From Pseudidiomarina terrestris (lineage in GTDB: Bacteria > Pseudomonadota > Gammaproteobacteria > Enterobacterales > Alteromonadaceae): a DNA stretch of 64,000 nucleotides. The notes below the pieces were generated by a model. The model was not told the DNA's origin. It made no database searches and was given only the letters and a program-made list of their open reading frames with translations. Shown here in pieces: positions 18,891 to 61,749 of the stretch; the stretch's first letter is position 1; the number at the start of each line of letters is the position of its first letter. The stretch covers positions 124,001 through 188,000 of the forward strand of contig NZ_JAGGJF010000004.1 of the NCBI RefSeq assembly GCF_030466405.1, given 5' to 3'. Both the position numbers and the translations under genes were made by a program.

Positions 18891-20642
18891 TTAATTTGAT
18901 TCGCTATCGATAAACTGCATCGGTAGCTCAATATGATAGCTCAGGCCTTCGCCTGGAGCCGATTGCACCGTGATGGTGCCGTTGAAGGTTTGTTCAACAA
19001 GATTGTGAACGATATGAGTGCCTAGCCCACTGCCACCGCGCTCGCGGCGCGTTGTGAAGAAGGGGTCAAACAAGGTTTCCTGCTGAGCCTCGGTGAGACC
19101 TTTGCCATCATCTTTATAGTCGATGTGCAGAACGCCACCCTGTCGGCGAACGGTTAATTCGAGACGACCGTGCTGGTCATCTTCAAATGCATGGATCAGT
19201 GAATTCAACACCAGATTAGTAATGATCTGCGCCAAAGCGCCTGCGTTACAGCGCGCGATAATGGTATCGGGGCAGTCCAGACTGATTTTGTGGTTGGTAT
19301 TTTTAAACCGTGGCTGCAACGCCTGTAAGACATTTTGAATGTAGTGCTGCAGGTTGATTTCACGGACCGCGTCTGACGTCTGATCAACGGCCACTTGTTT
19401 GAAGCCGTCCAGCAGGTCAGAAGCCCGTCCCAGATTACTTTCAAGTAGCTCCACGCTTTGCAGGCTGGCATCTAAAAGCTCGCGCATTTGCGCTTCGGTG
19501 AGCTGCTTATTCTCGAGGGCTTGCTGCATGTTGTCGAGTTTATCGCGCAGCAAGCTGGTGGCGGTAATGCCAATGCCAAGCGGTGTATTTACATCATGGG
19601 TAATACCGGCAACCAGACGGCCCAGTGAGGCGAGTTTCTCTGCTTCAATCAATTGGTCCTGTACACGTTCAAAGGCCGTGACGGACGACTGCAGCTGGCT
19701 GTTGGTCTCACGCAGGTCGTCTTCAATAATTTTGCGTTGTCGGATCTCACGTTCCAGCTTGCCCTGACGTCGCTCCAGCTCATCTTTGCGCCGCTCCAGG
19801 TCAGTTAATACCTGACTCAGGCTTGATGTTTTGCGCGCGACCTCTTGCTCGAGCACCGCATTTTGTTCATCGAGTTGTTGATTGGCATGCAGTAATTGTT
19901 GTTGGGTACGTTTAAGATCTTCCTGATAGTCCTCAAGGTTATCCAGCAGCTGATTATAAGCCTGCTCCACCATATTGAACTCGGTGTGACGGTTATTCTT
20001 CAGATTAATCCGTGAATGCTCTAAATCATCCAGTCGGAAATTGCGAATTTGTTGGGTGAGGATGTTCATGGGCCGGTTGAGCATACGGCTAAACGCTAAC
20101 GTGAAGAGAACAATCAAAAAGGTACTTTTGATAATAGCGTTACCAAAAATGAAATACAGACTGAACTTGATCCGGTCCAGCGCAATATCACGCGTTGAGA
20201 ACAAGGTAACGTCACCGACGCGATTCGAATCTCCGGCAAATTCGAAAATGATAGACGAGTAATAGCCAAATAAACCATTGCGCTCTTGAATGACGAAGTC
20301 TTCAACGTCTGAGGTGAGGTTTAGCGCGTTAATGCTTTCCGTTAAACCGAGTTTAACGATGGTATCACCAGCTTCATCACGAATGACAATGCCAGCGATG
20401 GCAGGAATATTAATTAAGCCCTCAGCGATGGCTTCAATTTGCCGGTTGTTGTACTCCCACAATGATCGAGCAAGGGAGTTACTGAAGGTGCTTTGCTGAT
20501 TTTGCAGTTCCTGTACGAGCTGGCTTTTGGTATCGAAATACTCCCCCATCACCTGCACACAGGTCACTATCAGTGTAAGTACGAAATACACCGAGAGGAC
20601 GTTGGTTAACAGTGATTTAGAAATATTGGTGGTGCTCGACAT
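18891..20642 (-). CDS. Orphan membrane sensor histidine kinase
   Basis: A 583-residue kinase with a helix at about 11-33, a periplasmic sensor region to about 160, a second helix at 161-185, a long coiled coil (about 225-335, rich in Gln, Glu, Arg) and a kinase core. The phospho-acceptor is probably His349 in AGITHDVNTPLG; the ATPase domain has ITNLVLNSLIHAF, DDGKGL and GGSGLGTHIV. No response regulator is adjacent. I chose the ATG at 20642; the frame is open to 20726, but that extension would overlap the Pho operator of the divergent gene. Signal and partner are unknown. Confidence 0.8.
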   Translation of the reverse strand: MSSTTNISKSLLTNVLSVYFVLTLIVTCVQVMGEYFDTKSQLVQELQNQQSTFSNSLARSLWEYNNRQIEAIAEGLINIPAIAGIVIRDEAGDTIVKLGLTESINALNLTSDVEDFVIQERNGLFGYYSSIIFEFAGDSNRVGDVTLFSTRDIALDRIKFSLYFIFGNAIIKSTFLIVLFTLAFSRMLNRPMNILTQQIRNFRLDDLEHSRINLKNNRHTEFNMVEQAYNQLLDNLEDYQEDLKRTQQQLLHANQQLDEQNAVLEQEVARKTSSLSQVLTDLERRKDELERRQGKLEREIRQRKIIEDDLRETNSQLQSSVTAFERVQDQLIEAEKLASLGRLVAGITHDVNTPLGIGITATSLLRDKLDNMQQALENKQLTEAQMRELLDASLQSVELLESNLGRASDLLDGFKQVAVDQTSDAVREINLQHYIQNVLQALQPRFKNTNHKISLDCPDTIIARCNAGALAQIITNLVLNSLIHAFEDDQHGRLELTVRRQGGVLHIDYKDDGKGLTEAQQETLFDPFFTTRRERGGSGLGTHIVHNLVEQTFNGTITVQSAPGEGLSYHIELPMQFIDSESN

Positions 20643-20719: not shown

Positions 20720-20775
20720 CTGTCATGAAGTGTTCACAAGGGCGTCACTTAGCTGTCACAAAGAAACTCTAAAGT
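20720..20775 (+). promoter_or_regulatory. PhoB-type promoter with four 11-bp repeats, upstream of the lipoprotein gene
   Basis: Four direct repeats start at 20720 (CTGTCAT), 20731 (TGTTCAC), 20742 (GCGTCAC) and 20753 (CTGTCAC), exactly 11 bp apart, as in tandem Pho boxes. Ten nt after the last repeat is a -10-like TAAAGT (20770-20775). The lipoprotein ATG follows at 20821. PhoB binding is inferred from the consensus. Confidence 0.8.
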
Positions 20776-20820
20776 GCCAGCACGAAAACAAAGTAAGCCT
20801 TCAATTCAACGGAGAATCTC

Positions 20821-22290
20821 ATGAATCGTACCAAAGCTTTTGCTCTGTCTGCACTTACCGCGTCCTTTATGCTGGCCGGTTGTGGCGGTGATATTAATTT
20901 GACCCCGACCTCTATCGACAATTCAACCAATACTAATGGTGGCTCGGCTCCCGATACCAACAACTGTGCCTCCTACGAGGACGCTGGTGCAACCGTACGT
21001 GGCGAAAAGATTGGCGCTGACTGCGTCTATCCACGCAGTTTCTCTACGCCAGAAAGCCCGGTTGTGACTGATATCCGCTTGGTAGAGCTGCCAGGTGGCG
21101 CGCACATCTTCCCTAATGGTCTCTACATTGGTGAAAACGTGCAGGAAACCGCAAGTGTTGAACGTGATGGACCCACCCTGACTATCGATGCCGGTGCTAC
21201 GCTGGCGTTTGAAGACGGCGATTCATTTGTGCGCATTGCACGTGGCGCAGACATTATTGCGGAAGGCAATCGTAACGCACCTATTACCTTTACTTCAGTA
21301 CAAGAAGTGGAAAATGGTGTTAGCAATCCGAACGCGCGTGGTTTGTGGGGCGGTTTAGTACTTAACGGATTTGGTATCTCAAATAAATGTGATCAGGATG
21401 ACCTGGCAAACTGCGTACTGCAGGGCGAAGGTGGTGCTGGTTTCTACGGCGGTGATGACAATACCGACAACTCAGGTATCCTGCGTTACGTATTGGTGAA
21501 GTATGCCGGTTACGAAGTTTCTCTTGATAACGAACTGAACGGCATTACTTTCTATGGTGTCGGTTCAGACACCACAGTTGAATACATTCAGGTTCACAAT
21601 AACCTTGATGATGGTATCGAGTTCTTTGGCGGTGCTGCCAACGCAAAATATGTCGTGCTGACAGGTAACGACGATGACTCACTGGATTGGGCCGATGGCT
21701 GGCAGGGTAACATCCAGTACATTATCACCAAACACGCTGACGACCGTGCGAACCGTGCTATCGAAGCGGATGGTAATAGCCGCAATAACGATGCAACCCC
21801 GTACTCAGATCCAATTATTGCAAACTTCACATCGATTGGTTCGTTAACAGCAACTGACGGCTCGGACGAATCTGAAGGTGTGTTGTTACGTCAAGGTACG
21901 CGCGGTTCTTTGTATAACTTTGTTATCACTGACGCACGTGGCGAATGTCTGGAAATCGATAACGCTGCCACCTTTGCCAACGCCGATGCCGGCACGCTTA
22001 GCATTGCTAACTCAGTTATTGCCTGTAGCGAAAACTTCGCTGACGTTGCGACCCAGGATTGGTACGAAAGCGAAGCCTCGAACGTCACCTTAGACGAGCT
22101 TGCGACTGTGCTGACCTCTGGTTATGTCACTGCTGCTGATATGACGGACGCGTCCGGTGCCCCGGTAACAGTCACGCCGAAAACCGACCTGAGCACACTG
22201 AACCCATTCTTTGATGATGTGGATTTTGTTGGCGCAGTTAGTGAAGACAACGATTGGACAAATGGCTGGACCGTAGGCCTGCGCGACTAA
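20821..22290 (+). CDS. Pho-regulated lipoprotein with probable beta-helix fold, function unknown
   Basis: A 489-residue lipoprotein (signal ending LAGC, Cys21). After a short Asn/Thr-rich linker the sequence shows repeating short strands: LTIDAGATLAFED, IIAEGNRNAPITFTS, GLWGGLVLNG, ILRYVLVKYAG, VEYIQVHNNLDDGIEFFGG and AKYVVLTGNDDDSLDW. This is the look of a right-handed beta-helix rich in Asp and Asn, possibly binding metal or sugars. It is preceded by strong tandem Pho boxes and followed after 70 nt by a TonB-dependent receptor, so a role as the receptor's surface or periplasmic partner in phosphate starvation is plausible. No enzyme motif was recognised. Confidence 0.75.
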   Translation: MNRTKAFALSALTASFMLAGCGGDINLTPTSIDNSTNTNGGSAPDTNNCASYEDAGATVRGEKIGADCVYPRSFSTPESPVVTDIRLVELPGGAHIFPNGLYIGENVQETASVERDGPTLTIDAGATLAFEDGDSFVRIARGADIIAEGNRNAPITFTSVQEVENGVSNPNARGLWGGLVLNGFGISNKCDQDDLANCVLQGEGGAGFYGGDDNTDNSGILRYVLVKYAGYEVSLDNELNGITFYGVGSDTTVEYIQVHNNLDDGIEFFGGAANAKYVVLTGNDDDSLDWADGWQGNIQYIITKHADDRANRAIEADGNSRNNDATPYSDPIIANFTSIGSLTATDGSDESEGVLLRQGTRGSLYNFVITDARGECLEIDNAATFANADAGTLSIANSVIACSENFADVATQDWYESEASNVTLDELATVLTSGYVTAADMTDASGAPVTVTPKTDLSTLNPFFDDVDFVGAVSEDNDWTNGWTVGLRD

Positions 22291-22303
22291 TGAAGGAATT
22301 GGA

Positions 22304-22317
22304 GCACATGGATGTGC
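22304..22317 (+). other. Small intercistronic hairpin between lipoprotein and receptor genes
   Basis: GCACA and TGTGC flank a 4-nt loop, followed by AGCTTTTCC. It is a weak stem with a short T run, so it could attenuate transcription between the lipoprotein and receptor genes or mark an RNA-processing point. Low confidence. Confidence 0.3.
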
Positions 22318-22360
22318 AGCTTTTCCCCCTGATAATTAAGTCACGCATGCGGAGTTTCCT

Positions 22361-24997
22361 ATGAAAAAGCAGGCTGTATTAATGCAAAGTAAACTGGGCC
22401 TCGCGATCGCTCTCGCGTTGTCTGGTCCCCTTGCTTACGCTCAGCAAGATCAAGCGCAAGCAACGAGCGATACCACCATTGAAGAAGTTGTTACCACAGG
22501 CACGCGATTGCAAGGTTCAGCGGCCGCAGTGGTCGAAGAGCGTAAGGCTCAGGCGTTCGTCGCTGATATTCTCGGAGCAGAGCAAATCTCCAGAACTGGC
22601 GATAGCGATGCCGCGACCGCGCTGCGTCGTGTCACAGGTTTGACTCTGGTCGATGGTAAATTCATTTACGTACGCGGACTCGGTGAACGTTATTCAAGTA
22701 CCCAGTTAAATGGGGCTTCAGTGCCGTCACCTGATCCGACCCGTAACGTCATCCCGTTAGACATGTTTCCGGCCAGCATTATCGAAAGTATGGCTGTGCA
22801 AAAGTCTTATTCGCCGGATATGCCCGCTAATTTCGGTGGTGGTAACGTCAATATCCGTACGGTTTCTATTCCTACCGATGAAGTGTTTGAGGTATCGGTC
22901 GGAACGGGCTGGAACAGTAACTTCTCGGACGACGGGTTGACCTACGCTGGCGGTGATGATGACTGGTTAGGTAAAGATGATGGCACCCGGGCATTGTCAG
23001 CAGAGATGCGGGCAGCCTTGGCGCGTTATCAGGAAAGTATCAATACGCCCAGCATTGCCTCAAGTGAGGGGATCTCCAGTAGCGAAGCGGCGGCCATTAA
23101 CCGACAGCTGGCGGCGTCACTGAATACACAGAATGAAGTCTACAGTAAATCTCTGCGCCCGGATCTCGATGGCTCGGTGACTTACGGTAATGCCTACGAA
23201 GTCAGCGACGATTTAACTTTTGGCTTTCTTGCTGCGGTGGATTACGGCAACAGCTGGTCCAATAGCGAAGAATCTGAGCTGGTACTGGGAATTGCAGAGG
23301 GTGCGGCGGCCATCGATCAGGCCAGCGAGAGCAGGGTGACTACACAGAATGTAGAACTCAGCGGTTTGCTTAATTTCGGTGTGGAAATTGGTGATTATCA
23401 CCGCATTGAGACCTCGACTATTTTTTTGCGGAACACCGCTGATCGAGTGGAGCAGGGCGTGGTTGAAACCCCCAACTCCATCGATGAAACCGGGTTAAGC
23501 TACTTTGATACCGAAACCCGCTATGAACAGCGTGAATTACTAACCAATCAAATCCGTGGTTCGCATTATTTTCCTCAATTATGGGGCTTTGCGCTGGACT
23601 GGCAGTATGCTGATTCGCGGGCAAGCCGTGATGCACCAGGTGAAGTCTTTTATCGTCAGATCAACAATCGTGATTTAGGCGAAGGTGTTGGCGACCTGGC
23701 ATTCCAGCAAACCCGGACCGCAACCACCCTGCAGTATCAGAATCTGGAAGATGACGCTCAGGACTGGCGCGTTGACGGTGAGTTGCCTGTATCACTGGCG
23801 GCGATGGAGATCCTGCTTAAGGGCGGCGGGCAAGTATCGAAGAAAGCTCGTTCTTCATATTCCCGACGCTTTGCAATCAGTGCTGAGCAGGTTGCCAACA
23901 GTGAATTACGAAATGTCAGCTACAACGACCTGTTCAGTGATGAAAACCTCACGGATGGGGAGTTTGGTTTCGCTTTGTTTGGTGCTCCTACGGCGACCGA
24001 TCCGAATTATCTGGCCGCGCAACAGATCGAAGCTGGTTATGGCCTTGCCGATATCCAGCTGAACGATGACTGGCGCGTCAGTGGTGGTTTGCGTTGGGAG
24101 CAATACACTCAGGTCGCTGCTCAACTTGATCTTCGCACCATGAGAGTCGTTGGTGATGTTGCTGATGCTGGCCGCGTTGAAGATGATCTCTATGGTTCGC
24201 TGGCGCTGACGTACCAACTCAATGACGAGATGCAGCTGCGTTTCGGTTATGGCAGCACTGTTGTACGACCTGATTTGCGAGAGCTGACCGAGGTGATTTT
24301 CGTTGATCCATTGACCAATTTTAAGGTACGTGGGAACAGCGAATTGATGACCACGGATATTGATAATTTCGATGTACGTTGGGAATGGTATTTGCCGGCT
24401 GGAGAAAATTACTCGGTCGCGATGTTCTACAAAGATCTGGCCAATCCGATTGAGGCTGTTGAAGCTAAAGGTACTGATTCGGATCGCGTCATTACCTTCC
24501 TGAATGGCCAGTCGGGTGAAGTCTACGGTCTGGAATTTGAATTCCTGAAAGACCTGACCCTGCTTACCGATGGCCTGTTCGTATCAGGAAACCTGACTCT
24601 CTCAGACTCAGAAATCAGTATCGCTAACACGGGTAACGTAGAGCTGACGAATAACAGCCGACGGATGACAGGTCACTCGAAGTACGTCACCAACTTGCAG
24701 CTGGGCTATGACTCATTAAATGGTGAGCACAGCGCATCACTTATCTACAATGTAGCGGGTGAGCGAATTGCTTTTGCTGGCGTTAAAGAAGGTGCTGTAG
24801 GCATTGACGATGCCGTCGAGCAGCCGTTCCATAGCCTGGATCTGGTGTACACCTATTACCCGGATTTTAATTCGAAGGTGAAGCTTAAGGTGCAAAACAT
24901 GCTGGGCGAGGATGTTGAAATCGAACAGGGCGGACGTTTGATTCAGTCGCGTAGCGTCGGTACCGGAGTCAGTCTGGAATACAGCTACTCTTTTTAA
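22361..24997 (+). CDS. TonB-dependent outer-membrane receptor, Pho-linked
   Basis: An 878-residue receptor with a signal peptide (about 27 residues, ending GPLAYA), a TonB-box-like IEEVVTTGTR, a plug domain with VRGLGERYSSTQLNG and PANFGGGNVNIRT, and a beta-barrel ending in the outer-membrane C-terminal signal SLEYSYSF. It has no own Pho box and probably reads from the promoter at 20720 with the lipoprotein gene. The encoded energiser (ExbB, ExbD, TonB) lies about 1.5 kb downstream under a separate Pho promoter. The substrate is unknown; phosphate or a phosphorylated compound is inferred from regulation. Confidence 0.88.
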   Translation: MKKQAVLMQSKLGLAIALALSGPLAYAQQDQAQATSDTTIEEVVTTGTRLQGSAAAVVEERKAQAFVADILGAEQISRTGDSDAATALRRVTGLTLVDGKFIYVRGLGERYSSTQLNGASVPSPDPTRNVIPLDMFPASIIESMAVQKSYSPDMPANFGGGNVNIRTVSIPTDEVFEVSVGTGWNSNFSDDGLTYAGGDDDWLGKDDGTRALSAEMRAALARYQESINTPSIASSEGISSSEAAAINRQLAASLNTQNEVYSKSLRPDLDGSVTYGNAYEVSDDLTFGFLAAVDYGNSWSNSEESELVLGIAEGAAAIDQASESRVTTQNVELSGLLNFGVEIGDYHRIETSTIFLRNTADRVEQGVVETPNSIDETGLSYFDTETRYEQRELLTNQIRGSHYFPQLWGFALDWQYADSRASRDAPGEVFYRQINNRDLGEGVGDLAFQQTRTATTLQYQNLEDDAQDWRVDGELPVSLAAMEILLKGGGQVSKKARSSYSRRFAISAEQVANSELRNVSYNDLFSDENLTDGEFGFALFGAPTATDPNYLAAQQIEAGYGLADIQLNDDWRVSGGLRWEQYTQVAAQLDLRTMRVVGDVADAGRVEDDLYGSLALTYQLNDEMQLRFGYGSTVVRPDLRELTEVIFVDPLTNFKVRGNSELMTTDIDNFDVRWEWYLPAGENYSVAMFYKDLANPIEAVEAKGTDSDRVITFLNGQSGEVYGLEFEFLKDLTLLTDGLFVSGNLTLSDSEISIANTGNVELTNNSRRMTGHSKYVTNLQLGYDSLNGEHSASLIYNVAGERIAFAGVKEGAVGIDDAVEQPFHSLDLVYTYYPDFNSKVKLKVQNMLGEDVEIEQGGRLIQSRSVGTGVSLEYSYSF

Positions 24998-25020
24998 GAG
25001 TTTGTAACAACGTCATAAAA

Positions 25021-25044
25021 CGGGAGCTTCGGCTCCCGTTTTTT
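25021..25044 (+). terminator. Rho-independent terminator after the receptor gene
   Basis: A 7-bp GC-rich stem (CGGGAGC / GCTCCCG) closes a TTCG loop and is followed directly by six T residues. It separates the receptor from the mechanosensitive channel gene. Confidence 0.9.
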
Positions 25045-25110
25045 GTTATACAATAGAGGCACGCAGAGGCGTTTTTGATTCTTAGATTGAACAACGAGTG
25101 GCAATTTTCT

Positions 25111-26385
25111 ATGCAAGATATGCAAGAGAAATTAGAAGCAGCGCAGAGCTGGCTGGTTGAACGGCCAGACATGGATACTTTAACGAAATTAAGTTTGTTG
25201 CTGGTGGGTGCCTGGGTGGCAAACTTTATCGTGAAGAAAGTATTGCTACGTGGCCTGCTGCGAATTTTAAGCTACACACCCGCAGGTAAAGACCGGCAAG
25301 CCATAGAGCGGAATATCGTGGCGCGACTAGCGAACGTCATTCCAGCGCTGGTCATCGCTTTTGGCATTACCTCGGTTCCCAACTTAGCTGAAGAACTCAC
25401 CATTGTTGTCACCAACGTCTGTTTCGCGTTCATCGTGATCACCATCGCTCGCGCGATAAGTGGCACCCTGACCATTGTAAACACGCTGTATGAGCGTCAG
25501 CCTCAGGCGCAAGAACGGCCCATTAAAGGTTACATCCAGGTCGCTAAAATTGTCATCTATGCGGTGGCAACGATTCTGATGATTGCGGTCTTGATCGATA
25601 AATCGCCCGTTATATTGCTCTCCGGTCTGGGTGCGATGGCCGCGGTGCTGATGTTGGTGTTCCAGGATACATTGTTGAGTCTGGTCGCCAGTGTGCAAAT
25701 TACCTCAAACGATATTATCCGGGTCGGTGACTGGGTGGAGATGCCCAATCTGAACGCCGATGGCGATGTCATCGACATCGCCTTGCACCAGGTGAAAGTG
25801 CAGAACTGGGACAAGACCATTACCTTCATTCCCACCCGGCGCTTTATTTCTGACCCCTTTAAAAACTGGCGTGGCATGCAGGAGTCAGGTGGCCGGCGTA
25901 TAAAGCGGAGTTTGTTGTTAGATCAGCAAAGCATTCATTTCTTAACAGACGATGAGCTGAAAGCGGTGAAGCGTTTCCGGCTGTTAAAAGATTACCTGCA
26001 AAATAAACAACAGGAAATCGATGACTGGAACCAACAACTCAAAGACGAAGGCAAGGAACCGGTAAATACCCGGCGTATCACTAATATTGGTACCTTCCGT
26101 GCTTATATCCTGCAATATCTTGAGAATCATCCGAAAGTTCATCAAGAGATGACTCTGATGGCACGGCAGCTGAATCCGACATCGGACGGTCTTCCTATCG
26201 AGGTCTATTGTTTTACCAACACCATTGTCTGGACCGAATACGAGGGTATTCAGTCGGATATCTTTGACCACTTGCTATCGATTTTGCCAGAGTTCGGTTT
26301 ACGCGTATTCCAGCATCCAAGTGGTATTGATATGCGTGAAATGACACGAAACTTAAATCAAAGTGGCACAAAAAGTTCATCCTGA
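25111..26385 (+). CDS. MscS-family mechanosensitive channel (YbdG/MscM-like)
   Basis: A 424-residue inner-membrane channel that opens under membrane tension to release solutes. It has several N-terminal helices, the pore-lining region ILLSGLGAMAAVLMLVFQDTLLSLVASVQI, and a beta domain with VGDWVEMPNLNADGDVIDI, VKVQNWDKTI and PTRRFISDPFKNWRGM. The segment GGRRIKRSLLLDQQSIHF is typical of the YbdG branch. The frame is open from a TTG at 25075, but the ATG at 25111 is more likely. The end of the gene overlaps the first PhoB-like repeat of the next promoter. It sits behind a terminator, so its own control is unclear. Confidence 0.88.
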   Translation: MQDMQEKLEAAQSWLVERPDMDTLTKLSLLLVGAWVANFIVKKVLLRGLLRILSYTPAGKDRQAIERNIVARLANVIPALVIAFGITSVPNLAEELTIVVTNVCFAFIVITIARAISGTLTIVNTLYERQPQAQERPIKGYIQVAKIVIYAVATILMIAVLIDKSPVILLSGLGAMAAVLMLVFQDTLLSLVASVQITSNDIIRVGDWVEMPNLNADGDVIDIALHQVKVQNWDKTITFIPTRRFISDPFKNWRGMQESGGRRIKRSLLLDQQSIHFLTDDELKAVKRFRLLKDYLQNKQQEIDDWNQQLKDEGKEPVNTRRITNIGTFRAYILQYLENHPKVHQEMTLMARQLNPTSDGLPIEVYCFTNTIVWTEYEGIQSDIFDHLLSILPEFGLRVFQHPSGIDMREMTRNLNQSGTKSSS

Positions 26386-26437
26386 CACAAAACTGACATA
26401 GCGCAGTCACCAAGCTGTCACACAACTGACGTATCTT
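26382..26437 (+). promoter_or_regulatory. PhoB-type promoter with five 11-bp repeats, upstream of the TonB energiser operon
   Basis: Five direct repeats at exact 11-bp steps: CTGACAC (26382), CTGACAT (26393), CAGTCAC (26404), CTGTCAC (26415) and CTGACGT (26426). Ten nt after the CTGTCAC repeat is TATCTT (26432-26437), a -10-like hexamer. The DUF3450 ATG follows at 26474. Confidence 0.75.
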
Positions 26438-26473
26438 GCACATCATCACTCACAACCTGTGCAAGGTGTTTCT

Positions 26474-27250
26474 ATGAAACCATGTTTCGCTCGCACGCTG
26501 GTACTCGCAGGGATTTTTGCAAGTACCAGTGCTGTCGCTCAAGATCAGGCGCTTGAGCCGGTGGTTGATGCCGCCAATGAAATCAATCAAGCCGCCCGCT
26601 CCTCCCAGCTCACCGTCGATAAAATCGCCGACACGACGCAAGATCGCGTGCAGCAATTCAAGCAAATCAACCGCCAGATCCAAGGTCTGGAGGTGTATGT
26701 GCAGCAGCTGCAAAAACAAATCGATTTTCAGCAACAGGAAAAAGCCGAACTCAATGATTCTATTGACGAGGTGAGTGTGGTTGAGCGGCAGATCACACCG
26801 CTTATGCTGCGCATGATTGATAGCCTCGATACCTTTGTAAACCTCGATGTGCCATTTCTTTCTGCCGAGCGTGAAGGTCGTATCGCTGGCTTGCATGAGC
26901 TGATGGATCGGGCTGATGTGGATGTTTCCGAGAAATTTCGCCGGGTCATGGAAGCCTATCAGATTGAAGCCGATTACGGCCGTACCATCGAAGCTTACAA
27001 CGGCGAGATGACCATTTCTGGTCAGCCCCAGGATGTCGAGTTTCTGCGCATCGGCCGTACGGTACTCATCTATAAGACCCGTGATGGCAAGCAAATGGGC
27101 GTTTGGAATCAGCTCGACCGTGAGTGGCAGCAACTGGATTCCAGTTACGCCACAGATGTACAGGAAGCGCTGCGGATTGCCCGCAAGCAGCTGGCCCCGG
27201 ATTTATTAATGCTTCCGGTTTTCACTCAAACTGCGCAGGCGGGAGACTAA
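26474..27250 (+). CDS. DUF3450 periplasmic coiled-coil protein
   Basis: A 258-residue secreted protein: signal peptide of about 22 residues (ending STSAVAQ), then a long coiled coil (about 30-115, with VQQFKQINRQIQGLEVYVQQ) and a C-terminal domain containing GRTVLIYKTRDGKQMGVW. I recognise DUF3450, which is regularly the first gene of TonB2-type clusters in marine gammaproteobacteria. It lies 3 nt before the TtpC-like gene. The role is unknown but the coiled coil matches that of its neighbour, suggesting contact in the periplasm. The start at 26474 is preferred over a GTG at 26459. Confidence 0.85.
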   Translation: MKPCFARTLVLAGIFASTSAVAQDQALEPVVDAANEINQAARSSQLTVDKIADTTQDRVQQFKQINRQIQGLEVYVQQLQKQIDFQQQEKAELNDSIDEVSVVERQITPLMLRMIDSLDTFVNLDVPFLSAEREGRIAGLHELMDRADVDVSEKFRRVMEAYQIEADYGRTIEAYNGEMTISGQPQDVEFLRIGRTVLIYKTRDGKQMGVWNQLDREWQQLDSSYATDVQEALRIARKQLAPDLLMLPVFTQTAQAGD

Positions 27251-27253
27251 CCC

Positions 27254-28609
27254 ATGTTGAAATTAAAACATTGCATCGCTGCTTTAGCTCTGGCATTTGC
27301 AGCTCCGGCATTTAGCCAGGAACCGGTGAACCTAGATCAGCTTTTACAGCAGTTGAAAGAGGGCAAGTTTGCCCAGTCGCAGGCTAATGAAGAACGTGAG
27401 GCGCGGTTCCGCGCGCAAGCTGAACAGCAGCAGCAAGTTTTGCGGGAAGCCATCGCCAAACGCGACCAGCTGGAGCAGGCCAGCGCCCGTCTTGAGGGGC
27501 AATTTGAAACCAATGAACGTGATCTGGCTGCGCTTGAAGACGCGCTGACGCAGCGCATGGGCTCCTTAAAAGAGCTGTTTGGCGTACTGCAGCAAGTGGC
27601 CGGTGACACCGCCAGCAACTTAAGAAACTCTTACGTTTCGGTCGAGTTTCCAGGCCGCAGTGATGCCCTGAGTGACCTCGCTCAGAAAATGGGCTCAAGT
27701 TCAAAGCTGGCCAGCATCGAGGAGATCGAATCGGTCTGGTTTGCACTGCAGCAAGAGATGACAGAATCCGGCAAAGTGAGCCAGTTCAATACCCAGGTGA
27801 CGCTGGCCAATGGCGAAAAAGAAACCAAGCCAGTGATCCGTGTAGGGACCTTCAATATGGTTTCCGACGGCAAATACCTTGAGTTGATTCCGGGTACGGA
27901 CGCGGTTGCTGAACTCATGCGTCAGCCTGCGGGGCGTTACCTCAACACCGCTGAAGCCCTTGTGGAAAGTAATGATAATCCCGTTCGTTTTGGCCTGGAT
28001 CCCACCGGCGGCTCCATTCTTGGGTTGCTGGTGCAAGCACCAGATCTGCAGGAGCGCATTGATCAGGGCTCGACCGTTGGTTACATCATTCTTGCCCTTG
28101 GCGCTGTTGGCCTGCTGATCGCATTAGAGCGTTTCGTTACCCTGATATTGATGGGCGGTAAAGTAAAACGCCAGTTGAAGAACGCGCAGGCGCAAGACGA
28201 CAACCCCTTAGGTCGCGTCATGGCAGTAAAAGACAAGTACCCACAGGCCGACACCGAAACCCTGGAGTTGAAACTCAGCGAAGCTATTTTGCGAGAAGTT
28301 CCCAAGATCACGCGCAATCTGACCTTTATCAAGATCATCTCTGTGGTCGCGCCGCTGCTAGGTCTGTTAGGTACCGTTACCGGTATGATTAATACCTTCC
28401 AGGCGATCACTTTGTTCGGTACCGGCGACCCGAAGCTAATGGCCGGCGGTATTTCGCAAGCCCTGGTTACCACGGTCCTTGGTCTGGTGGTCGCGATCCC
28501 GATGACCTTGCTGTTTGCCACCTTAAATACGCGGAGTAAGAATCTGGTCCACGTGTTGCAGGAACAGGCGTCAGGCATTATTGCGGAGCGCTCTGAGCGG
28601 GGGCACTAA
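27254..28609 (+). CDS. ttpC: TtpC-like MotA/TolQ/ExbB protein with periplasmic coiled coil
   Basis: A 451-residue protein of the TonB2-system component TtpC type. It starts with a signal peptide (to about residue 22) and a Gln/Glu/Arg-rich coiled coil (about 25-110), then a periplasmic domain, and ends in an ExbB/TolQ proton-channel domain: helices at about 275-297, 350-378 and 395-425 with VVAPLLGLLGTVTGMI and GGISQALVTTVLGLVVAIP. In Vibrio, TtpC is required for TonB2 function. The stop overlaps the exbB start by 1 nt. Confidence 0.9.
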   Translation: MLKLKHCIAALALAFAAPAFSQEPVNLDQLLQQLKEGKFAQSQANEEREARFRAQAEQQQQVLREAIAKRDQLEQASARLEGQFETNERDLAALEDALTQRMGSLKELFGVLQQVAGDTASNLRNSYVSVEFPGRSDALSDLAQKMGSSSKLASIEEIESVWFALQQEMTESGKVSQFNTQVTLANGEKETKPVIRVGTFNMVSDGKYLELIPGTDAVAELMRQPAGRYLNTAEALVESNDNPVRFGLDPTGGSILGLLVQAPDLQERIDQGSTVGYIILALGAVGLLIALERFVTLILMGGKVKRQLKNAQAQDDNPLGRVMAVKDKYPQADTETLELKLSEAILREVPKITRNLTFIKIISVVAPLLGLLGTVTGMINTFQAITLFGTGDPKLMAGGISQALVTTVLGLVVAIPMTLLFATLNTRSKNLVHVLQEQASGIIAERSERGH

Positions 28610-29142
28610 TGATGGTGTTCTCTATCGACTTTTATAATGCGATTCAGGACTTTGTGGAAACAGGTGGTCAGGTACTCCTGATCATCGGCATCCTGATTTT
28701 CATCATGTGGTTGATGATTCTGGAGCGCATTTTTTACTTCACCCGTGGGCACCAGCAGCAAAAACAGCAAGTGTTGCAGAAGTGGAAAGCGCGGGAGGAT
28801 AAATCGTCATGGAATGCCGAGCAGATCCGACAGGCCATGATTTCGCGAGTTTCCATTGCTCTGGGGGGGCGTTTGCCGGTGTTGCAAGCGCTGGTGGCAC
28901 TCTGTCCACTGCTGGGATTGATGGGGACGGTGACCGGCATGATCGAAGTATTTGATGTGATGGCAGTTGCGGGGACCGGCAATGCCCGCTCGATGGCTGC
29001 TGGCGTATCCAAAGCCACCATCCCGACCATGGCTGGCATGGTGGGCGCATTATCAGGTGTGTTTGCGACCACCTGGTTACAACGAACAGCGAAGCGCGAA
29101 CGTCTGAAGCTGGAAGATCGCATGCTAATGGAACACCACTAG
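28609..29142 (+). CDS. exbB: ExbB2-type proton-channel subunit
   Basis: A 177-residue short ExbB with a first helix at about 19-38 (QVLLIIGILIFIMWLMILER) and the paired channel helices at about 98-118 (ALCPLLGLMGTVTGMIEVFD) and 136-158 (KATIPTMAGMVGALSGVFATT). It forms the proton channel with ExbD that energises TonB. It lacks the periplasmic extension of the upstream TtpC-like protein, so the operon encodes two distinct ExbB-type subunits. Confidence 0.92.
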   Translation: MMVFSIDFYNAIQDFVETGGQVLLIIGILIFIMWLMILERIFYFTRGHQQQKQQVLQKWKAREDKSSWNAEQIRQAMISRVSIALGGRLPVLQALVALCPLLGLMGTVTGMIEVFDVMAVAGTGNARSMAAGVSKATIPTMAGMVGALSGVFATTWLQRTAKRERLKLEDRMLMEHH

Positions 29143-29153
29143 AGGGCTGAATA

Positions 29154-29561
29154 ATGAAACAACATTTTGCTAATTTGATCGACGAAGAAGAAGCCCAGAT
29201 TGATATGACGCCAATGCTCGACGTGGTGTTTATCATGCTGATCTTTTTTATTGTCACCGCCAGCTTCGTGAAAGAGGCCGGCATCGATGTAAACCGCCCA
29301 GAAGCCGCTACCGCGGTGCAAAAGGATCGCGCCAATATTCTGGTTGCCATCAGTGATACAGGCGAGATTTGGATTAATAAACGCCAGGTCGATGCACGTG
29401 CCGTGCAAGCCAACATTGAACGTTTGTACGCAGAGAACCCACAAGGTTCAGTGGTGATACAAGCGGACAAGAAAGCGACCACTGAAACTCTGATAAAGGT
29501 TATGGACGCTGCGCGAGCTGCGGGTGTCTTCGATGTCTCAATAGCAGCGCAGGAAGAGTAG
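29154..29561 (+). CDS. exbD: ExbD2-type proton-channel subunit
   Basis: A 135-residue protein with one N-terminal membrane helix (about 20-40) and a periplasmic domain. The conserved protonatable aspartate of ExbD is Asp23 in DMTPMLDVVFIML. It lies 11 nt after exbB and 4 nt before tonB. Confidence 0.93.
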   Translation: MKQHFANLIDEEEAQIDMTPMLDVVFIMLIFFIVTASFVKEAGIDVNRPEAATAVQKDRANILVAISDTGEIWINKRQVDARAVQANIERLYAENPQGSVVIQADKKATTETLIKVMDAARAAGVFDVSIAAQEE

Positions 29562-29565
29562 AACC

Positions 29566-30171
29566 ATGCGTTTTTTAGCAGCACTGGCCGTCGCCGCTAT
29601 CGTGACACTCGGCTTGTTTTACCTGATGCAGTCGCTGATCACGGGTGGCCAAGGCGCGATGACCGAGCCGGCAAAAGGCAGCGTACTCGATTTCGTACGG
29701 ATCAAACCAGAAGAAGTCGTACAGCAAAAGGAGCGTAAGCCGGAACGGCCGCCAGAGCCAGAAGCGCCACCGCCCGATATGCCGACGCCACAAATGGACA
29801 CCAGTGAGCTTTCGCCGGATGGCGGCAGCTATGATTTTTCCACCTCCGCACAAGCGGATACCGGACTCTCCGGTGGCATGAACCTGGATACCAGTGATGG
29901 CGAGTATCTGCCTATTGTGAAAGTCCAGGCAGCCTATCCACGTCGCGCCTTACAGCGCGGTATAGAAGGCTACGTAGTGGTGGAGTTTACCGTGACCCGA
30001 CAGGGCACTGTGCGCGATCCGCGGGTGGTCGAGGCACAGCCGGAACAGATTTTTGATCAAGCTGCCATGGATGCCGTCTTGAAGTTTAAATACAAACCTC
30101 GTGTGGTCAATGGTGACGCCGTTGAAGTGGAAGGCGTGCAAAACCGGATTACCTTTGAAATCGATGGCTAG
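29566..30171 (+). CDS. tonB: TonB energy-transducing protein
   Basis: A 201-residue TonB with an N-terminal membrane anchor (about 3-24), a short Pro/Glu linker (KPERPPEPEAPPPDMPTP) and a C-terminal domain with YPRRALQRGIEGYVVVEFTV and FKYKPRVVNGDAVEVEGV, the conserved TonB fold that binds the TonB box of receptors. The linker is short, as in TonB2-type proteins, which pair with TtpC. It probably drives the receptors encoded nearby. Confidence 0.93.
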   Translation: MRFLAALAVAAIVTLGLFYLMQSLITGGQGAMTEPAKGSVLDFVRIKPEEVVQQKERKPERPPEPEAPPPDMPTPQMDTSELSPDGGSYDFSTSAQADTGLSGGMNLDTSDGEYLPIVKVQAAYPRRALQRGIEGYVVVEFTVTRQGTVRDPRVVEAQPEQIFDQAAMDAVLKFKYKPRVVNGDAVEVEGVQNRITFEIDG

Positions 30172-30180
30172 GAGAACACA

Positions 30181-31443
30181 ATGCGTCATTTAATCGTTAT
30201 TATTGTCTGGATTGTCATCAGCCAGTTTGTGCATCAGGCGGCGAGCGCGCAGGACAGCAAACGGGTTCCTGCGTTACGCGAGCAGGTTTACAGTCAGTTA
30301 GCGCGGGCTCAGGAACTGGCTGATGCCGGTGACGTGGAGGCTGGCCTGGCAGCGCTCAAAGCGGTCGAAGGTAAGCTCAGTAGTATGAATAGTTACGAGC
30401 GCGCCATGCTGTGGAACTTCTATGGTTATATGCATTACGGTAAAGACCGTATCGGCAAAGCGATTACCTACTTCGACAAAGTGGTCAGCGAAGATCCCAT
30501 TCCGGACGCATTAAAGCAAACGACCTTGTTCAGCCTGGCACAGTTGTCTTTAGGGCAAAACGATTATGCACAAACCCTTGCCTATCTGGACCACTGGCAG
30601 CAAGTCACTGGCGAGCAACAGGCAACCAAAGCCGATGTACTGCGGGCGCAGGCACTTTACCAAAAAGGTGATTACGAGCAGGCGCTGACACCGATAAAAC
30701 GCGCCATCAGCTCCGCTCGGGCAACTAACGAAACCGGTGAGGAAGCCTGGTATGTGCTGCAACGCGCGATCCACTACGAATTAGGCCAGACCGAAGCCGT
30801 TGCCGACGTTCTTGAGCAAATGATCAAGCATTTCAATAAACCTGATTACTGGACTCAGTTGGCGGGCGTGTACGGCCAGCTTGGCCGTGACCAGCAGCAG
30901 TTAGCCATGCTCGAGGCGGCCTATCAACAGGGGTTTCTAACCCGTGGCCAGGATTTGCAGATGCTGGTGCAAAGCTACTTCTTTGGCGGCGTCCCCTTTA
31001 AGGCGGGGCAGGTGATGGAGCAAGCCATCGCCCAAGGTAAACTGGAGGCTGATTTACGGAATTTGAAGTTGCTGGCACAAAGCTGGATTGCGGCCCGGGA
31101 AACCGATAAAGCCGTCAACGCCTTAAAGCAAGCTGCTGAATTAAGCATCGATGGTGAACTGGATGCGCAACGTGCGCAGGTGCTGCTCAATGCCGAACGT
31201 TATCCGCAAGCCATTGCAGCAGCGGAAACTGCACTGGCGAAAGGTAATCTGGAAAAGCCCGGTACCATGCATTTAGTTATCGGCATGGCTGAACTTGAAC
31301 AAGAGAACTATAATCCTGCGCTACAGGCTTTCGCGAAAGCAAAAGCATTTGCAGACGCGCGCAAGGCAGCAGGGCAGTGGGAACGCTACGCCACCTCTGA
31401 AAAAGAGCAGGCTGAGCGTATTAAGGAATTGCAGTCGTCATAA
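30181..31443 (+). CDS. Periplasmic TPR protein of the TonB cluster
   Basis: A 420-residue secreted protein with a signal peptide (to about 24, ending ASA) and several tetratricopeptide-like helix pairs, such as AMLWNFYGYMHYGKDRIGKA, SLAQLSLGQNDYAQTLAYLD and MHLVIGMAELEQENYNPALQ. TPR proteins close TonB2-type clusters and may organise the complex in the periplasm. It is 9 nt after tonB. Its stop codon is followed immediately by the upstream PhoB-like repeat array of the porin gene. Confidence 0.85.
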   Translation: MRHLIVIIVWIVISQFVHQAASAQDSKRVPALREQVYSQLARAQELADAGDVEAGLAALKAVEGKLSSMNSYERAMLWNFYGYMHYGKDRIGKAITYFDKVVSEDPIPDALKQTTLFSLAQLSLGQNDYAQTLAYLDHWQQVTGEQQATKADVLRAQALYQKGDYEQALTPIKRAISSARATNETGEEAWYVLQRAIHYELGQTEAVADVLEQMIKHFNKPDYWTQLAGVYGQLGRDQQQLAMLEAAYQQGFLTRGQDLQMLVQSYFFGGVPFKAGQVMEQAIAQGKLEADLRNLKLLAQSWIAARETDKAVNALKQAAELSIDGELDAQRAQVLLNAERYPQAIAAAETALAKGNLEKPGTMHLVIGMAELEQENYNPALQAFAKAKAFADARKAAGQWERYATSEKEQAERIKELQSS

Positions 31444-31445
31444 AA

Positions 31446-31553
31446 ATGACACTGTCGCGACATAAGAGCGACACAGGAACGACATAAAAAAGTTATCGAA
31501 ACAGCAAAAAACTGTCACATAGTCATGAAACTGTCATAAAGTTGCAATATGCT
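31446..31553 (+). promoter_or_regulatory. PhoB-type promoter of the porin gene with an upstream repeat array
   Basis: Upstream array: ATGACAC (31446), GCGACAT (31457), GCGACAC (31468) and ACGACAT (31479), all 11 bp apart; CTGTCAC at 31512 is in the same phase. The core box is TAGTCAT (31520) and CTGTCAT (31531), 11 bp apart but out of phase with the array. A -10-like TATGCT (31548-31553) follows after 10 nt. The porin ATG is at 31615. Confidence 0.75.
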
Positions 31554-31614
31554 ATGCGCGCTTGAGTGGTAAATCGATCGCTCATACGAACCATAGTTAG
31601 CGTAGGTGGACCTT

Positions 31615-32562
31615 ATGACTTTTAAACATGTAGCTTTGATTATGCTTCCGTTCGCTTTGACCAGCACCGCGCTGGCAGCTCAGGAAAGCAACGACGAACC
31701 GAAGAGCTCCTTTGATTTTTACGGTAAAGCAAATGTCTCATTGCAGAGCAATGATGATGGCGCCAGTACGGAAACTGAATTAGAGAGCAACGCATCACGT
31801 ATCGGCGTGAAGGGCGGCACTAAGATCAGTGACGATTTAGAAGTCATTTATCAGCTCGAGTGGCAGGTCGACCTGGCCGACTTAGGTGGTGATGATAACC
31901 TCAAATCACGTAATCAGTTTGTCGGACTGCGGGGCAGCTTTGGTGAGCTGACTGTGGGACGGCGCGACACAGTGCTAAAGACGCTGCAGGGCGATCTCGA
32001 TCAGTTCAGCGATTATGAAGCCGATATCAAAGCGCTGTTTGAAGGTGAAAACCGTACCAGCAATACCATCTCGTATTACTCGCCCAGCTTCCATCACATT
32101 CGTGTGGCCGGTAGCGTGGTCTTGAGTGAAGGCGATACCCAGGACGATGGTTACTCGCTGGCAGTCACCTATGGTGACGACGATCTTGATGACACCGGCT
32201 ATTATTTCGGTGCAGCAATGGATCGCGATGTCGATGGCTATGACATCGAACGGCTGATCGGTTACACCAAGGTTAACTCCACTATGTTCGGCTTAATGTG
32301 GCAGCAACAGGAACGGGTTGATGGCACCGCTGAAGCAGATGGTTTCGTTGCCAGTGTTGAACAGCCGTGGGGCCGCTTTAGCTTCAAAGCGCAATATCAA
32401 ATGATGGACTTTATCGATGGCGATGACGACTCGCTCTCGTTTGGTGTTGACTACAAACTTGCTAAAGGCACCAAAGTCTATACCTGGTATACGGGTCGCG
32501 ACCTTGACACCATCGAAGCGGAACAGCGTTATATTGCAGTAGGTATTGAACATAAATTCTAG
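31615..32562 (+). CDS. Small Gram-negative porin, probably phosphate-regulated
   Basis: A 315-residue outer-membrane protein with a signal peptide (cut near TALA-AQES), alternating beta-strand sequence such as FDFYGKANVSLQ, SRIGVKGGTKISDDLEVIYQLEW and FVGLRGSFGELTVGRRD, and the C-terminal signal AVGIEHKF. This is the porin_4 type of general porin. The Pho promoter suggests a job like E. coli PhoE or Pseudomonas OprP: letting phosphate or phosphorylated solutes through. An in-frame GTG at 31606 exists, but the ATG at 31615 sits correctly behind TAGGTGGA. Confidence 0.85.
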   Translation: MTFKHVALIMLPFALTSTALAAQESNDEPKSSFDFYGKANVSLQSNDDGASTETELESNASRIGVKGGTKISDDLEVIYQLEWQVDLADLGGDDNLKSRNQFVGLRGSFGELTVGRRDTVLKTLQGDLDQFSDYEADIKALFEGENRTSNTISYYSPSFHHIRVAGSVVLSEGDTQDDGYSLAVTYGDDDLDDTGYYFGAAMDRDVDGYDIERLIGYTKVNSTMFGLMWQQQERVDGTAEADGFVASVEQPWGRFSFKAQYQMMDFIDGDDDSLSFGVDYKLAKGTKVYTWYTGRDLDTIEAEQRYIAVGIEHKF

Positions 32563-45145: not shown

Positions 45146-48100
45146 TTAGAAGTCGTACTGGAAGCCCAGACGAACACTCCAAAGTGATGGCTGACCCGCA
45201 CGACCCTGAACCTGGTTGATACGCGGGGTAATATCCTCGAACACCCATTGATTCTGGTCGTTGATGCCGACTTCAGCAACGTTGACAGAACGCGGGAAGC
45301 TGGTTTCGTACAGCACACCCCAGTCATCGTTCAGCATGTTGGTGAAGTTATCCACAACGAAATAGACACGAGACTTGTGATCCTGCATAAAGCCAGGTAA
45401 TTCCTGCTCGACCTTCAGGTCAACTTTATGCCACCAGTCGCTGTTGAACTCGTTACGAGGAGCAATACCGCCAGCGTACTGACTCAGGCCTGACTCTTCA
45501 ATAAATGCCAGGAATTCCTGGATATCGCTGCTGGTCAGGTCGTCGCCCCAAGCCACATTGCTATCATTTTCGCCGGTCGGCACGTACAGCAGTGAGCGGC
45601 CGCGGGTAATGTCGCCAACAGGTGCATTCATAGTGAAGCTGTAGGGACGACCTTTATTGGCTGAACCGAACAGGCTGAAGGTGGTGTCATAGCCGGAGAA
45701 GAACTCTTTGGTGTAGGTACCACGGAACGTGAAACGATGAGGGATCTCATAGTTCGAAGTTGCGATACCCGGGTTCTCCGCATCTGCTGTCGCGACACTG
45801 GTGTAGTTCGAGTAAGCGACGGAACTGGTCATTGGATTGACATCTTCTGACTTGTTCCAGGCGTACGCAAGTGACCAGTTAAAGCCCCAGTCGTGATCTT
45901 TCGAAACGGCAAAGCTGATGCTCGTTTGCTCACCTGAGTCACCGTCAACGTTGGTCAGCAGGAAGGCATCAGAGCCATTGCGCGAATAGATCGGACGACC
46001 GTCCGGAGCTGTACCGCTCTGCTCTGCGCGTAAGTCTTTGATGATCGCTGCATCTTGCTTACGAGTGTGGAGGAAGTCAGCCATCAGAACGTAGTCGTTT
46101 TCGGTGACATAAGTTGCGCCAACTGCAAACTTCCATTCGTTTGGAATTTCGAAATCAGGATCCAATGCGTTGACAGGGCCACGGCCAGCAGCGGTTGCTA
46201 CCTCGTCAATCATTTCCACAGGCACATCAATGATAGGTGAGCCAGAACCGTAGTCCAGATCAAACAGGTTGACGTCGAAACGGTTTGCTTCATACAGCGT
46301 CACACCGTTATTCGAGTAATTGTTCGACAACCAGACGTTCGGATTACCACCGGAGTAAAGACCGAAACCACCGCGAACTTCAAGCTGATCATTGACGACC
46401 CAGTTCACGCCAAGACGTGGTTGAATCAGCCCTTCACCGTCAAGTGTTGCAGTGTTCTCAAAGCCATAGGTATCAAGAAATGCCTGATTAAGAGTAGGTG
46501 CGTCGCTGGTCGTGTACCAGTCATAGCGCAGGCCCAGTGTCAGGGTTAAGTCGTAATCGATGAAGTAGTATTCATCTTGCCCGTACAGGGTATTGACCGC
46601 ATATTCGAATTGCGCAGCGCCATCGTTTGGATTGTTGGTGCCGGCTGCATTTTCGTATATCAGACGGTCGACTAAACCGCTTTCGAAGTCATCAATTGAG
46701 TTAAATCGATGCTCACCCTGAGCTTCCTGAATAAACAGGTTAAAGACGTCATAGCTTTCGTATTCGTAACCGAAGGTCAAGGTATGATCATCTAACAGGT
46801 AGGTACCGGATAGTTTATAGAAGGAGGTATCGTAGGCCAGCTTATTGGCGTGACGCGAGTCATCGGCACCAAGGTAGATGGTATTGCCGTTATGACGAAT
46901 CTGAACCTCGCCGATGTCGTTGCCGCCGAGCGGCTCGACGCGGTTTTCTAACTCTGAGTAACCGGCACGAAGTTCCGTTGAGAAGTTATAAGTCCAGTCA
47001 GAGTAGAGCTGTGCAACATAGGAGTTAAACTCCGCACCACGCTCATAAAAGTGGTTGGAGAACTCAAGCTCATCGCTATCGCCGTCGGATTCAGCAATGG
47101 AGTAACCGTCATTGTAGTTATAAGTGAATGACGCACGATGATCCTGGTTGATGTACCAGTCGAGTTTGGCAAGGAACTTCTCATCTTCAACGGGTAAGCT
47201 CGCCGGGAACCCACCTGGCTCAAAATTATAAACATTACGAGCGATCGCTGCGATGCGATCTAAGTCGGCTTGGGTCACGCCTTGCACAGGGGTGGCGACA
47301 CTGGCGTCTTCAGGACCACGATCGAAAGTATCGGAACCTTCGAGCTTTTCATAAGCGATGAAGGCGAATAGCTTATCCTTAATCAGCGCACCGCCGCCGT
47401 TAAAACCATAGCGCTTTTCATTGAACGCACCGATGTTAACCGGTTCACCTTCCAGCTCATCACCGGTGAGTGAGTCGTTGGTGTAATCGAAGAAGACACT
47501 GCCAAAGAGCTCGTTCTCACCTGACTTGGTGACGGCGTTAATATTACATGCGGTAAAGCCACCGTACTCGACATCAAAGGGGGCCAGCTCAACTGCAACT
47601 TGCTCAATCGCATCGTAAGAAAATGGCATACGCTCTGTGGGGTAACCACTGGAATTCAAACCAAAGTTGTCATTGGTGCGGACGCCATCGACGGTCAGAC
47701 TGTTGAAACGCGGGTTGCCACCGCCACACTGGATGTCACGGGCATTGGTTTCATTGATGTAAATGCGTGGGTCAATTTGCACAACATCTTTGATGTCACG
47801 ATTCGGTGCAGGCTGATTTTGAATGTCGCGCAAGTTAAAGTTCGATGCAGGACTGCTGGCACCAGAAGTCATGGTCAGGCGACGGCCTTCCACCGAGATA
47901 CGCTCGACAGTTTGCTGAGCGACCTGAACACGAACATTTTCTGTCTCACCAAGCGTCAGGTAAACGTTCTCAACAACTTCGCTGTTGCCCATCGCGTCAG
48001 TTACGGTGAGTGTGTATGGACCGCCGACGGCAAGACCGCGGGCTGAAAACAGGCCACTATCGTTAGCACTGAAGGTGGTCGTGGTACCGGTACGTTCGTC

Positions 48101-48259: not shown

Positions 48260-48311
48260 GATGTTGCTTTCCTGGGTTGTGGTTAAGATGTTTAGCGTTC
48301 CTGGTCCACAA

Positions 48312-48345
48312 AGCTTAGTAACCTTGTGTGACAGTTTGATGAAAT
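48312..48345 (-). promoter_or_regulatory. PhoB-type promoter of Oar-like receptor copy 1
   Basis: Read on the minus strand: ATTTCAT (48345-48339), then CTGTCAC (48334-48328) 11 bp on, then after 10 nt TAAGCT (48317-48312). The -10 matches only three of six consensus positions, so this is the weakest of the eight. The ATG is at 48259. Confidence 0.55.
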
Positions 48346-48389
48346 AGTAGTCAAAAATGAGCAGGTTCACATCATTTTTTACGTTCTGA

Positions 48390-53683: not shown

Positions 53684-53715
53684 CGACGCAGCTTGAACAC
53701 GACTAGGTGAAAAAG

Positions 53716-56828: not shown

Positions 56829-56841
56829 GGTCAAAGTCAGT

Positions 56842-56871
56842 AAAAGCCGGCATCTGCCGGCTTTTATTTTT
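56842..56871 (+). terminator. Terminator between pstS and pstC
   Basis: A perfect 10-bp stem (AAAAGCCGGC with GCCGGCTTTT) and a 4-nt loop are followed by A and six T residues. It would end most pstS transcripts before the separate pstC promoter. Confidence 0.9.
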
Positions 56872-56877
56872 TCTAAA

Positions 56878-56931
56878 ATGTCACTTTTATGACGGTTCTG
56901 TAACAGTACTGTCATAATTCTCGGCTATACT
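56878..56931 (+). promoter_or_regulatory. PhoB-type promoter of pstCAB-phoU
   Basis: Two pairs of repeats 11 bp apart: ATGTCAC (56878) with ATGACGG (56889), and CTGTAAC (56898) with CTGTCAT (56909). Ten nt later lies TATACT (56926-56931), five of six -10 positions. The pstC ATG is at 56976. Confidence 0.82.
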
Positions 56932-56975
56932 TCCGGCCAATTAAACTCAAACTTGTTAAACCACTCGAGGTAATA

Positions 56976-59219: not shown

Positions 59220-59233
59220 GCGAGAGGATTTCC

Positions 59234-60889: not shown

Positions 60890-60918
60890 TTAACGAAGCA
60901 GAAGCGAAAGGTCTTACT

Positions 60919-61737: not shown

Positions 61738-61749
61738 CAGGAGTCAGGC

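Follow-up and report, generated by a model that had tools for sequence, protein, structure and literature searches.

Phosphate is generally assumed to cross the outer membrane by diffusing passively through porins. The locus described here raises the question of what a complete TonB energiser would do beneath promoters of the phosphate-starvation (Pho) type. It lies in a 64,000-nucleotide window (the whole stretch of DNA that was analysed; C9:124001-188000 of a 2.63-Mb genome in 14 contigs) from Pseudidiomarina terrestris, and the window is Pseudidiomarina-like in that its TonB-dependent receptor shares 91% identity with the receptor of P. halophila. Scans against Pfam and NCBIfam recovered the gene content and order that a first-pass annotation had read from the letters: a lipoprotein matching no family, the TonB-dependent receptor, the proteins DUF3450, TtpC, ExbB, ExbD, TonB and a TPR protein, and a porin; an MscS channel gene and a terminator-like hairpin between receptor and energiser are added to that list. 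The genes phoBR-pstSCAB-phoU follow 21 to 30 kb downstream of the cluster in the same window. The explanation that best accommodates these features, and probably the correct one, is that a Pho-induced lipoprotein-receptor pair with its own motor and a porin imports a phosphorus-containing ligand.

Pho-box arrays in the window and in related loci

Pho boxes were scored with an 18-mer trained by expectation maximisation (EM) on 15 non-redundant phoB and pst upstream regions (3 from the window, 12 from related loci), the halves of which were averaged to give a 7-bp unit followed by a 4-bp linker of hand-chosen weights; two to five units (k) were scored in an 11-bp register, with 40 random 64-kb sequences as the control. 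In the four-unit scan of the window, the site before the lipoprotein gene ranks first (array 1, 20720-20759, + strand, four 11-bp units, score 25.1) and the site before the energiser operon second (array 2b, 26382-26432, +, five units, 24.1 at k=4 and 26.7 at k=5), and none of the random sequences scored as high (best random score 15.2), so that the tandem Pho repeats of the first-pass annotation are more than a chance finding. Further arrays, each likewise unequalled in the 40 random sequences, were found within the 3'-terminal part of the MscS gene (array 2a, 26341-26380, +, four units, k=4 21.1), before the porin (array 3a, 31435-31485, +, five units, k=5 20.3 against a random maximum of 15.9; array 3b, 31520-31548, +, three units, k=3 20.3 against 18.4) and on the opposite strand before an Oar-like protein (48317-48356, -, k=4 19.8). 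Two-unit scores at the lipoprotein and energiser are within chance (the match at 20742 was equalled in 20 of 40 random sequences and that at 26382 in 32), and the evidence therefore rests on the longer arrays. Two scoring schemes were set aside: a genome-wide two-unit pattern with 3 mismatches gave 282+276 matches versus 250+264 for its reversed control, hardly any excess, and was dropped for the in-register array model, while the EM-trained 18-mer, used directly as scorer, came to resemble promoters of the phoB type and under-scored arrays 1 and 2, and the averaged unit model was taken instead. The Oar-like outer-membrane protein (PF25183, PF13620 CarboxypepD_reg and PF07715 Plug; listed open reading frame (ORF) 45146-48466, -) has its likely start at about 48259, some 57 bp after its array, and is likely a second Pho-controlled TonB-type receptor.

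A comparison of neighbouring genomes for conserved gene order and Pho boxes, put forward with the original annotation as a check, gave the same picture. Scanning with the receptor found 59 related loci, by their titles from Alteromonadales genera or bins (two labelled only Gammaproteobacteria), many of them close relatives and some with fetched stretches that end at contig ends; a lipoprotein ORF is present in 57 of the stretches and a TtpC ORF in 48. Among loci with a usable upstream region, arrays scoring above 99% of the 17,216 control stretches precede the lipoprotein in 55/56, the energiser in 48/49 and the porin in 11/11, as well as phoB in 20/20 (partly training data). Directly before the receptor the count is 0/58, an internal negative control that fits transcription of lipoprotein and receptor as one message. 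A fresh draw of controls returned 54/56 and 48/49 for lipoprotein and energiser, and the non-redundant loci 38/40 and 32/33; the reversed model reached 8/56 and 14/49, far below the true model but not zero, and ten column-permuted models 1-10/56 and 0-9/49. At least 21 of the 59 loci carry phoB (60% identity or more) within the sequence fetched, a minimum given that the stretches end. Together, the conserved arrays and the phoB linkage in relatives support the proposed Pho control of the receptor pair, the energiser and the porin.

Gene order varies around this core. Several Alteromonas and Colwellia loci read rdgC, histidine kinase, phoB, phoR, a PstS-family gene, in some cases a 2OG-Fe(II) oxygenase-family gene, lipoprotein, receptor and energiser, and in Pseudoalteromonas the energiser stands ahead of the lipoprotein (L066, L067, L069, L072, L073, L077). 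In the window, an MscS-type mechanosensitive channel gene (25111-26385, +; PF00924, PF21082) and a terminator-like hairpin 3' of the receptor (25017-25042, +; 11 pairs, 6 GC, a consensus match only) separate receptor and energiser, which are therefore probably distinct transcription units, although hairpins of this kind are not enriched in the region relative to shuffles (6 found versus a mean of 12.2). A match to the MscS gene at this place occurs only in the nine Pseudidiomarina among the 59 loci (synteny, E 1e-8). Array 1 overlaps the divergent histidine-kinase ORF (listed to 20726), the true start of which is probably near 20642; the kinase (CHASE5-HAMP; 18891-20642, -) has no adjoining response regulator and is kept beside rdgC and the cluster (or phoB) in many relatives.

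A separate, co-inherited motor

The energiser has every part of a TonB2-type system in the order originally described, all on the + strand: ttpB (DUF3450; 26474-27250; PF11932, 1.1e-88), ttpC (27254-28609; a DUF3450-like N part, PF11932 4.4e-07, and a MotA/ExbB domain, PF01618 2.1e-30), exbB (28609-29142; PF01618, 6.8e-21), exbD (29154-29561; PF02472, 1.5e-32), tonB (29566-30171; PF03544, 7.2e-22) and ttpD, the TPR protein (30181-31443; TPR families). The genome carries three TonB_C genes, one of them in a second full DUF3450-TtpC-ExbB-ExbD-TonB-TPR operon on contig C7 (L126, 6271-11290), the TtpC of which is 42% identical to that of the window and the upstream scan of which contained no Pho array.

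Across 295 genomes of the order, some TtpC relative occurs in 168, and the matches listed, which leave aside the weakest, split into 25 at 59% identity or more versus others at 48% or less. The former, Pho-type TtpC is present in 25/46 order genomes with the lipoprotein and in 0/249 without it. Among 196 genomes of the family (thresholds E 1e-140 and 1e-40), motor and lipoprotein occur together in 146, the motor only in 1 (G632), the lipoprotein only in 16 and neither in 33; Fisher values for this table, which are uncorrected for phylogeny, were set aside. Pho arrays precede 24/25 Pho-type TtpC operons versus 2/41 paralogues (fetched mostly from genomes of the same family) at the 95th control percentile, where 2 is the chance level; the 24 pass at either three or four units (23/25 at k=3 alone, 21/25 at k=4 alone; L159 fails). 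The 95th percentile was used because this control includes Pho-rich neighbourhoods of the orthologues, which inflate the 99th (5/25 orthologues and 0/41 paralogues pass). In a midpoint-rooted tree, the output of which flags the paralogues L165 and L198 as long branches, the 25 Pho-type TtpC proteins are set apart by a single branch (support 100/99), and the paralogue from the same genome falls outside. On the grounds of arrays, phoB linkage, tree grouping and co-inheritance, the comparison of sequences supports the claim that the energiser is a dedicated, Pho-type motor distinct from the general one.

The motor may not be devoted to this receptor. It could instead be a supplement for times of phosphate starvation, shared by several receptors of the outer membrane, including the Oar-like Plug-domain protein (45146 to about 48259) with its own Pho array; PF00593 is matched at 17 places in the genome, this receptor included, offering many possible clients, and the lipoprotein is often found without the Pho-type motor (21/46 order genomes, 16/162 family genomes). 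However, a general supplement sits poorly with a motor that almost never occurs without the lipoprotein (1/147 in the family sample, 0/25 in the order sample) and with a TtpC gene that lies within the receptor's fetched stretch in 48/59 loci, some of them with a few kb between the two. A shared supplement is accordingly an unlikely account of the locus, yet the most durable of the alternatives to a motor inherited with, and working for, the lipoprotein-receptor pair.

The lipoprotein-receptor pair and its probable cargo

The surface-type, ElpS-like lipoprotein (20821-22290, +; lipobox LAGC) matched no Pfam (E 0.01) or NCBIfam family. Its AlphaFold2 model (mean predicted local distance difference test score, pLDDT, 87.7) is predicted to be a right-handed beta-helix; Foldseek returned weak matches (best E 0.009, none at or below 0.001), presumably beta-helix proteins for the most part, judging by their titles, and these served only to call the fold. 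Pseudidiomarina, Colwellia and Pseudoalteromonas have one copy per protein (about 490 to 580 aa), and the proteins of Alteromonas, Shewanella sairae and kin consist of two or three copies in tandem (about 900 to 1360 aa) (L048, L061, L086 and others). The receptor (22361-24997, +) has plug and barrel (PF07715, 4.4e-09; PF00593, 1.3e-22), scores 208.9 bits against TIGR01782, under the cut-off of 310, and carries near its N terminus a TonB-box-like motif, IEEVV, of which E41, E42, V43 and V44 are kept in at least 90% of 40 sequences. The N part and plug of its model are poor (residues 1-107 with pLDDT below 50), and the model was not used to deduce a ligand; profile searches of PDB sequences gave 0 matches for lipoprotein (E 1) and receptor (E 0.001) alike.

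The pair extends beyond the order into further proteobacteria, the lipoprotein being found in 30/299 genomes of a phylum sample that includes the order itself. In 20 distant proteobacterial loci, the receptor is within the same 20 kb in 20/20 and close to the lipoprotein in 19/20 (the exception is L107), and only L106 has a TtpC-like gene. In roughly 10/20 of these loci, as judged by eye and with no composition-matched control, arrays scoring at least 14 precede the lipoprotein match at a distance of up to about 600 bp. Two of the 20, picked by gene sizes and tested (L111 and L122), have GspC, GspD and GspE adjoining the receptor; no type II secretion genes turned up in the family scans of the window proteins scanned.

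These elements suggest the following mechanism. In low phosphate, phosphorylated PhoB would bind the tandem arrays and switch on three units together, namely lipoprotein and receptor, the TtpBCD-ExbBD-TonB motor, and the porin (Porin_4; 31615-32562, +; PF13609, 6.7e-37). The lipoprotein, if exposed at the surface, would capture a phosphorus-containing ligand or help to free it there, and the receptor, physically paired with the Pho-controlled TonB and driven through it by the proton motive force, would move the ligand, or phosphate freed from it, into the periplasm, from which PstSCAB would take phosphate inward. The window encodes the regulators and transporter that such a scheme would use, in phoB (53707-54402, +; TIGR02154), phoR (54422-55732, +; TIGR02966) and pstS-pstC-pstA-pstB-phoU (55857-62478, +; TIGR02136, TIGR02138, TIGR00974, TIGR00972, TIGR02135), each over its cut-off. 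Directly before phoB lies a probable lipoprotein of the endonuclease/exonuclease/phosphatase family (52434-53630, +; lipobox LTGC by eye), which may release phosphate outside the cell. The presence in 17/59 loci of a gene family with a representative passing TIGR02136 (PstS family) speaks for a cargo of phosphate, or of some compound from which phosphate is obtained in the periplasm.

Alternatively, the Pho-controlled system may import a ligand that contains no phosphorus, such as a metal cofactor for starvation phosphatases. TonB receptors commonly carry metals, which favours this possibility, as do a 2OG-Fe(II) oxygenase-family gene in 18/59 loci (e.g., L061:3374-4174), just before the lipoprotein in the loci inspected and there, in Alteromonas-type clusters, between it and the PstS-family gene, and the conserved acidic residues of the lipoprotein, which could bind a divalent metal. 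Iron control was assessed by counting matches out of 19 to a Fur consensus. Matches of at least 14/19 occur upstream of 1/25 Pho-type motors, 3/41 paralogues and 1/56 lipoproteins, but control stretches of 300 bp give such matches at a rate of about 1%, close to that of the lipoproteins, 0/49 energiser promoters in the 59 loci have one, and no Fur-like site exists at the three window promoters (best 10, 11 at the energiser, and 10 of 19, against a control mean of 10.8). As the PstS-family and phoB neighbours also point to phosphate rather than metal, the metal reading is improbable, more so than a shared supplement. That the arrays arise by chance or serve another OmpR-type regulator is very improbable: Pho units are degenerate, and neither the two-unit matches at lipoprotein and energiser nor the genome-wide two-unit pattern rises clearly above its control, but in-register arrays of three to five units are conserved at orthologous promoters and fall to chance level before the paralogous motors.

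Import of a phosphorus ligand by a Pho-induced pair with its own motor must itself be weighed against several observations that speak against it. The porin under the same control would admit small phosphate without TonB, and with a match in only 11/59 loci it stands outside the conserved core. Among charged residues of the lipoprotein kept in at least 90% of sequences, acidic ones (E203, D216, D263, D264, E267, D285, D286, D289, E315, D317) prevail over R141 and H259, a pattern that does not point to a pocket binding phosphate directly. The many genomes that hold the lipoprotein without the motor imply that the pair presumably can work with another TonB, and genome G632 has the motor with no lipoprotein match. 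In Caulobacter crescentus, cc0171, the receptor gene of the comparable pair, is reported to be constitutive, and deletion of elpS left phosphatase activity unchanged (PMC2996285).

Known relatives and the meaning of the pairing

That pair, ElpS (CC0170) and CC0171, is a phosphate-starvation lipoprotein beside a TonB-dependent receptor, for which the authors noted co-occurrence and suggested a role in phosphate uptake; ElpS is released in a manner dependent on the type II secretion system (PMC2996285). The window pair resembles it in the adjoining lipobox lipoprotein and receptor; type II secretion genes, which adjoin ElpS/CC0171, accompany the pair in the distant loci L111 and L122 and are absent from the window proteins scanned. 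The window pair differs in its motor, no dedicated TonB motor being named in the portion of PMC2996285 consulted, and kinship is drawn from the description of CC0170 rather than its sequence. PhoB-controlled receptors are also described in Caulobacter (PMC11208175). In Flavobacterium johnsoniae, PUSIII and PUSIV contain low-phosphate-induced TonB-dependent transporters (TBDTs) beside FI and FII lipoproteins modelled as polygalacturonase-like, FII together with phoBR (PMC8115612); the predicted beta-helix of the window lipoprotein agrees with that modelling, whereas F. johnsoniae belongs to the Bacteroidota and the part of the paper available does not mention an energiser. SusCD/PusCD systems have a SusD partner, unlike the window lipoprotein, which has no match in Pfam.

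The motor is closest in its parts and order, ttpB first and ttpD last, to TonB2/TonB3 of Vibrio vulnificus, a likeness judged by arrangement. All six TtpB-TtpC-ExbB-ExbD-TonB-TtpD proteins of the Vibrio TonB2 system are essential for its function; the system, which has a potential Fur site, is under the control of iron and transports siderophores (PMC6957404, as far as its text was available). The window energiser differs in having Pho arrays and no Fur-like site, and Fur control is taken here as a trait of Vibrio TonB2 rather than as defining the TtpBCD class. In Pseudomonas aeruginosa PUMA3, the exbB2D2-tonB4 promoter needs PhoB and sigma-VreI in low phosphate, the genes sit with phdA/pdtB, and VreA lacks the barrel (PMC4971064). 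PUMA3 is thus a precedent for ExbBD-TonB genes under PhoB-type control, although no DUF3450, TtpC or TPR part is named in the text of PMC4971064 that was consulted, and no VreI-type sigma factor, VreA/VreR or two-partner secretion genes were found among the window proteins scanned (part of the window ORFs). The first-pass annotation had judged a Pho-controlled energiser the least expected part of the locus; the proposed control is supported by sequence, but the surprise is tempered by PUMA3 and by the Pho-linked pairs published for Caulobacter and Flavobacterium (PMC4971064, PMC2996285, PMC8115612, each seen in part). The single parts are already known from ElpS/CC0171, the Flavobacterium PUS lipoproteins, the PhoB-controlled receptors of Caulobacter, Vibrio TonB2 and PUMA3, and the element that seems new is their conserved pairing; the open-access literature searched contained no description of a Pho-regulon TtpC-type motor group inherited with a lipoprotein-receptor pair.

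In its broadest form, the proposal is that a marine Alteromonadales lineage split off a second complete Pho-regulon TonB motor, inherited with one receptor pair, that actively pumps phosphate or a phosphorus compound across the outer membrane, for which the chances appear about even. If it is true, a motor devoted to phosphorus and driven by the proton motive force would mean that these bacteria spend energy on gathering phosphorus at their surface, and a widespread pair, the kin of ElpS/CC0171, would gain a function. The system would be a Pho-specific counterpart to the iron-controlled TonB2, and the question becomes testable in culturable strains.

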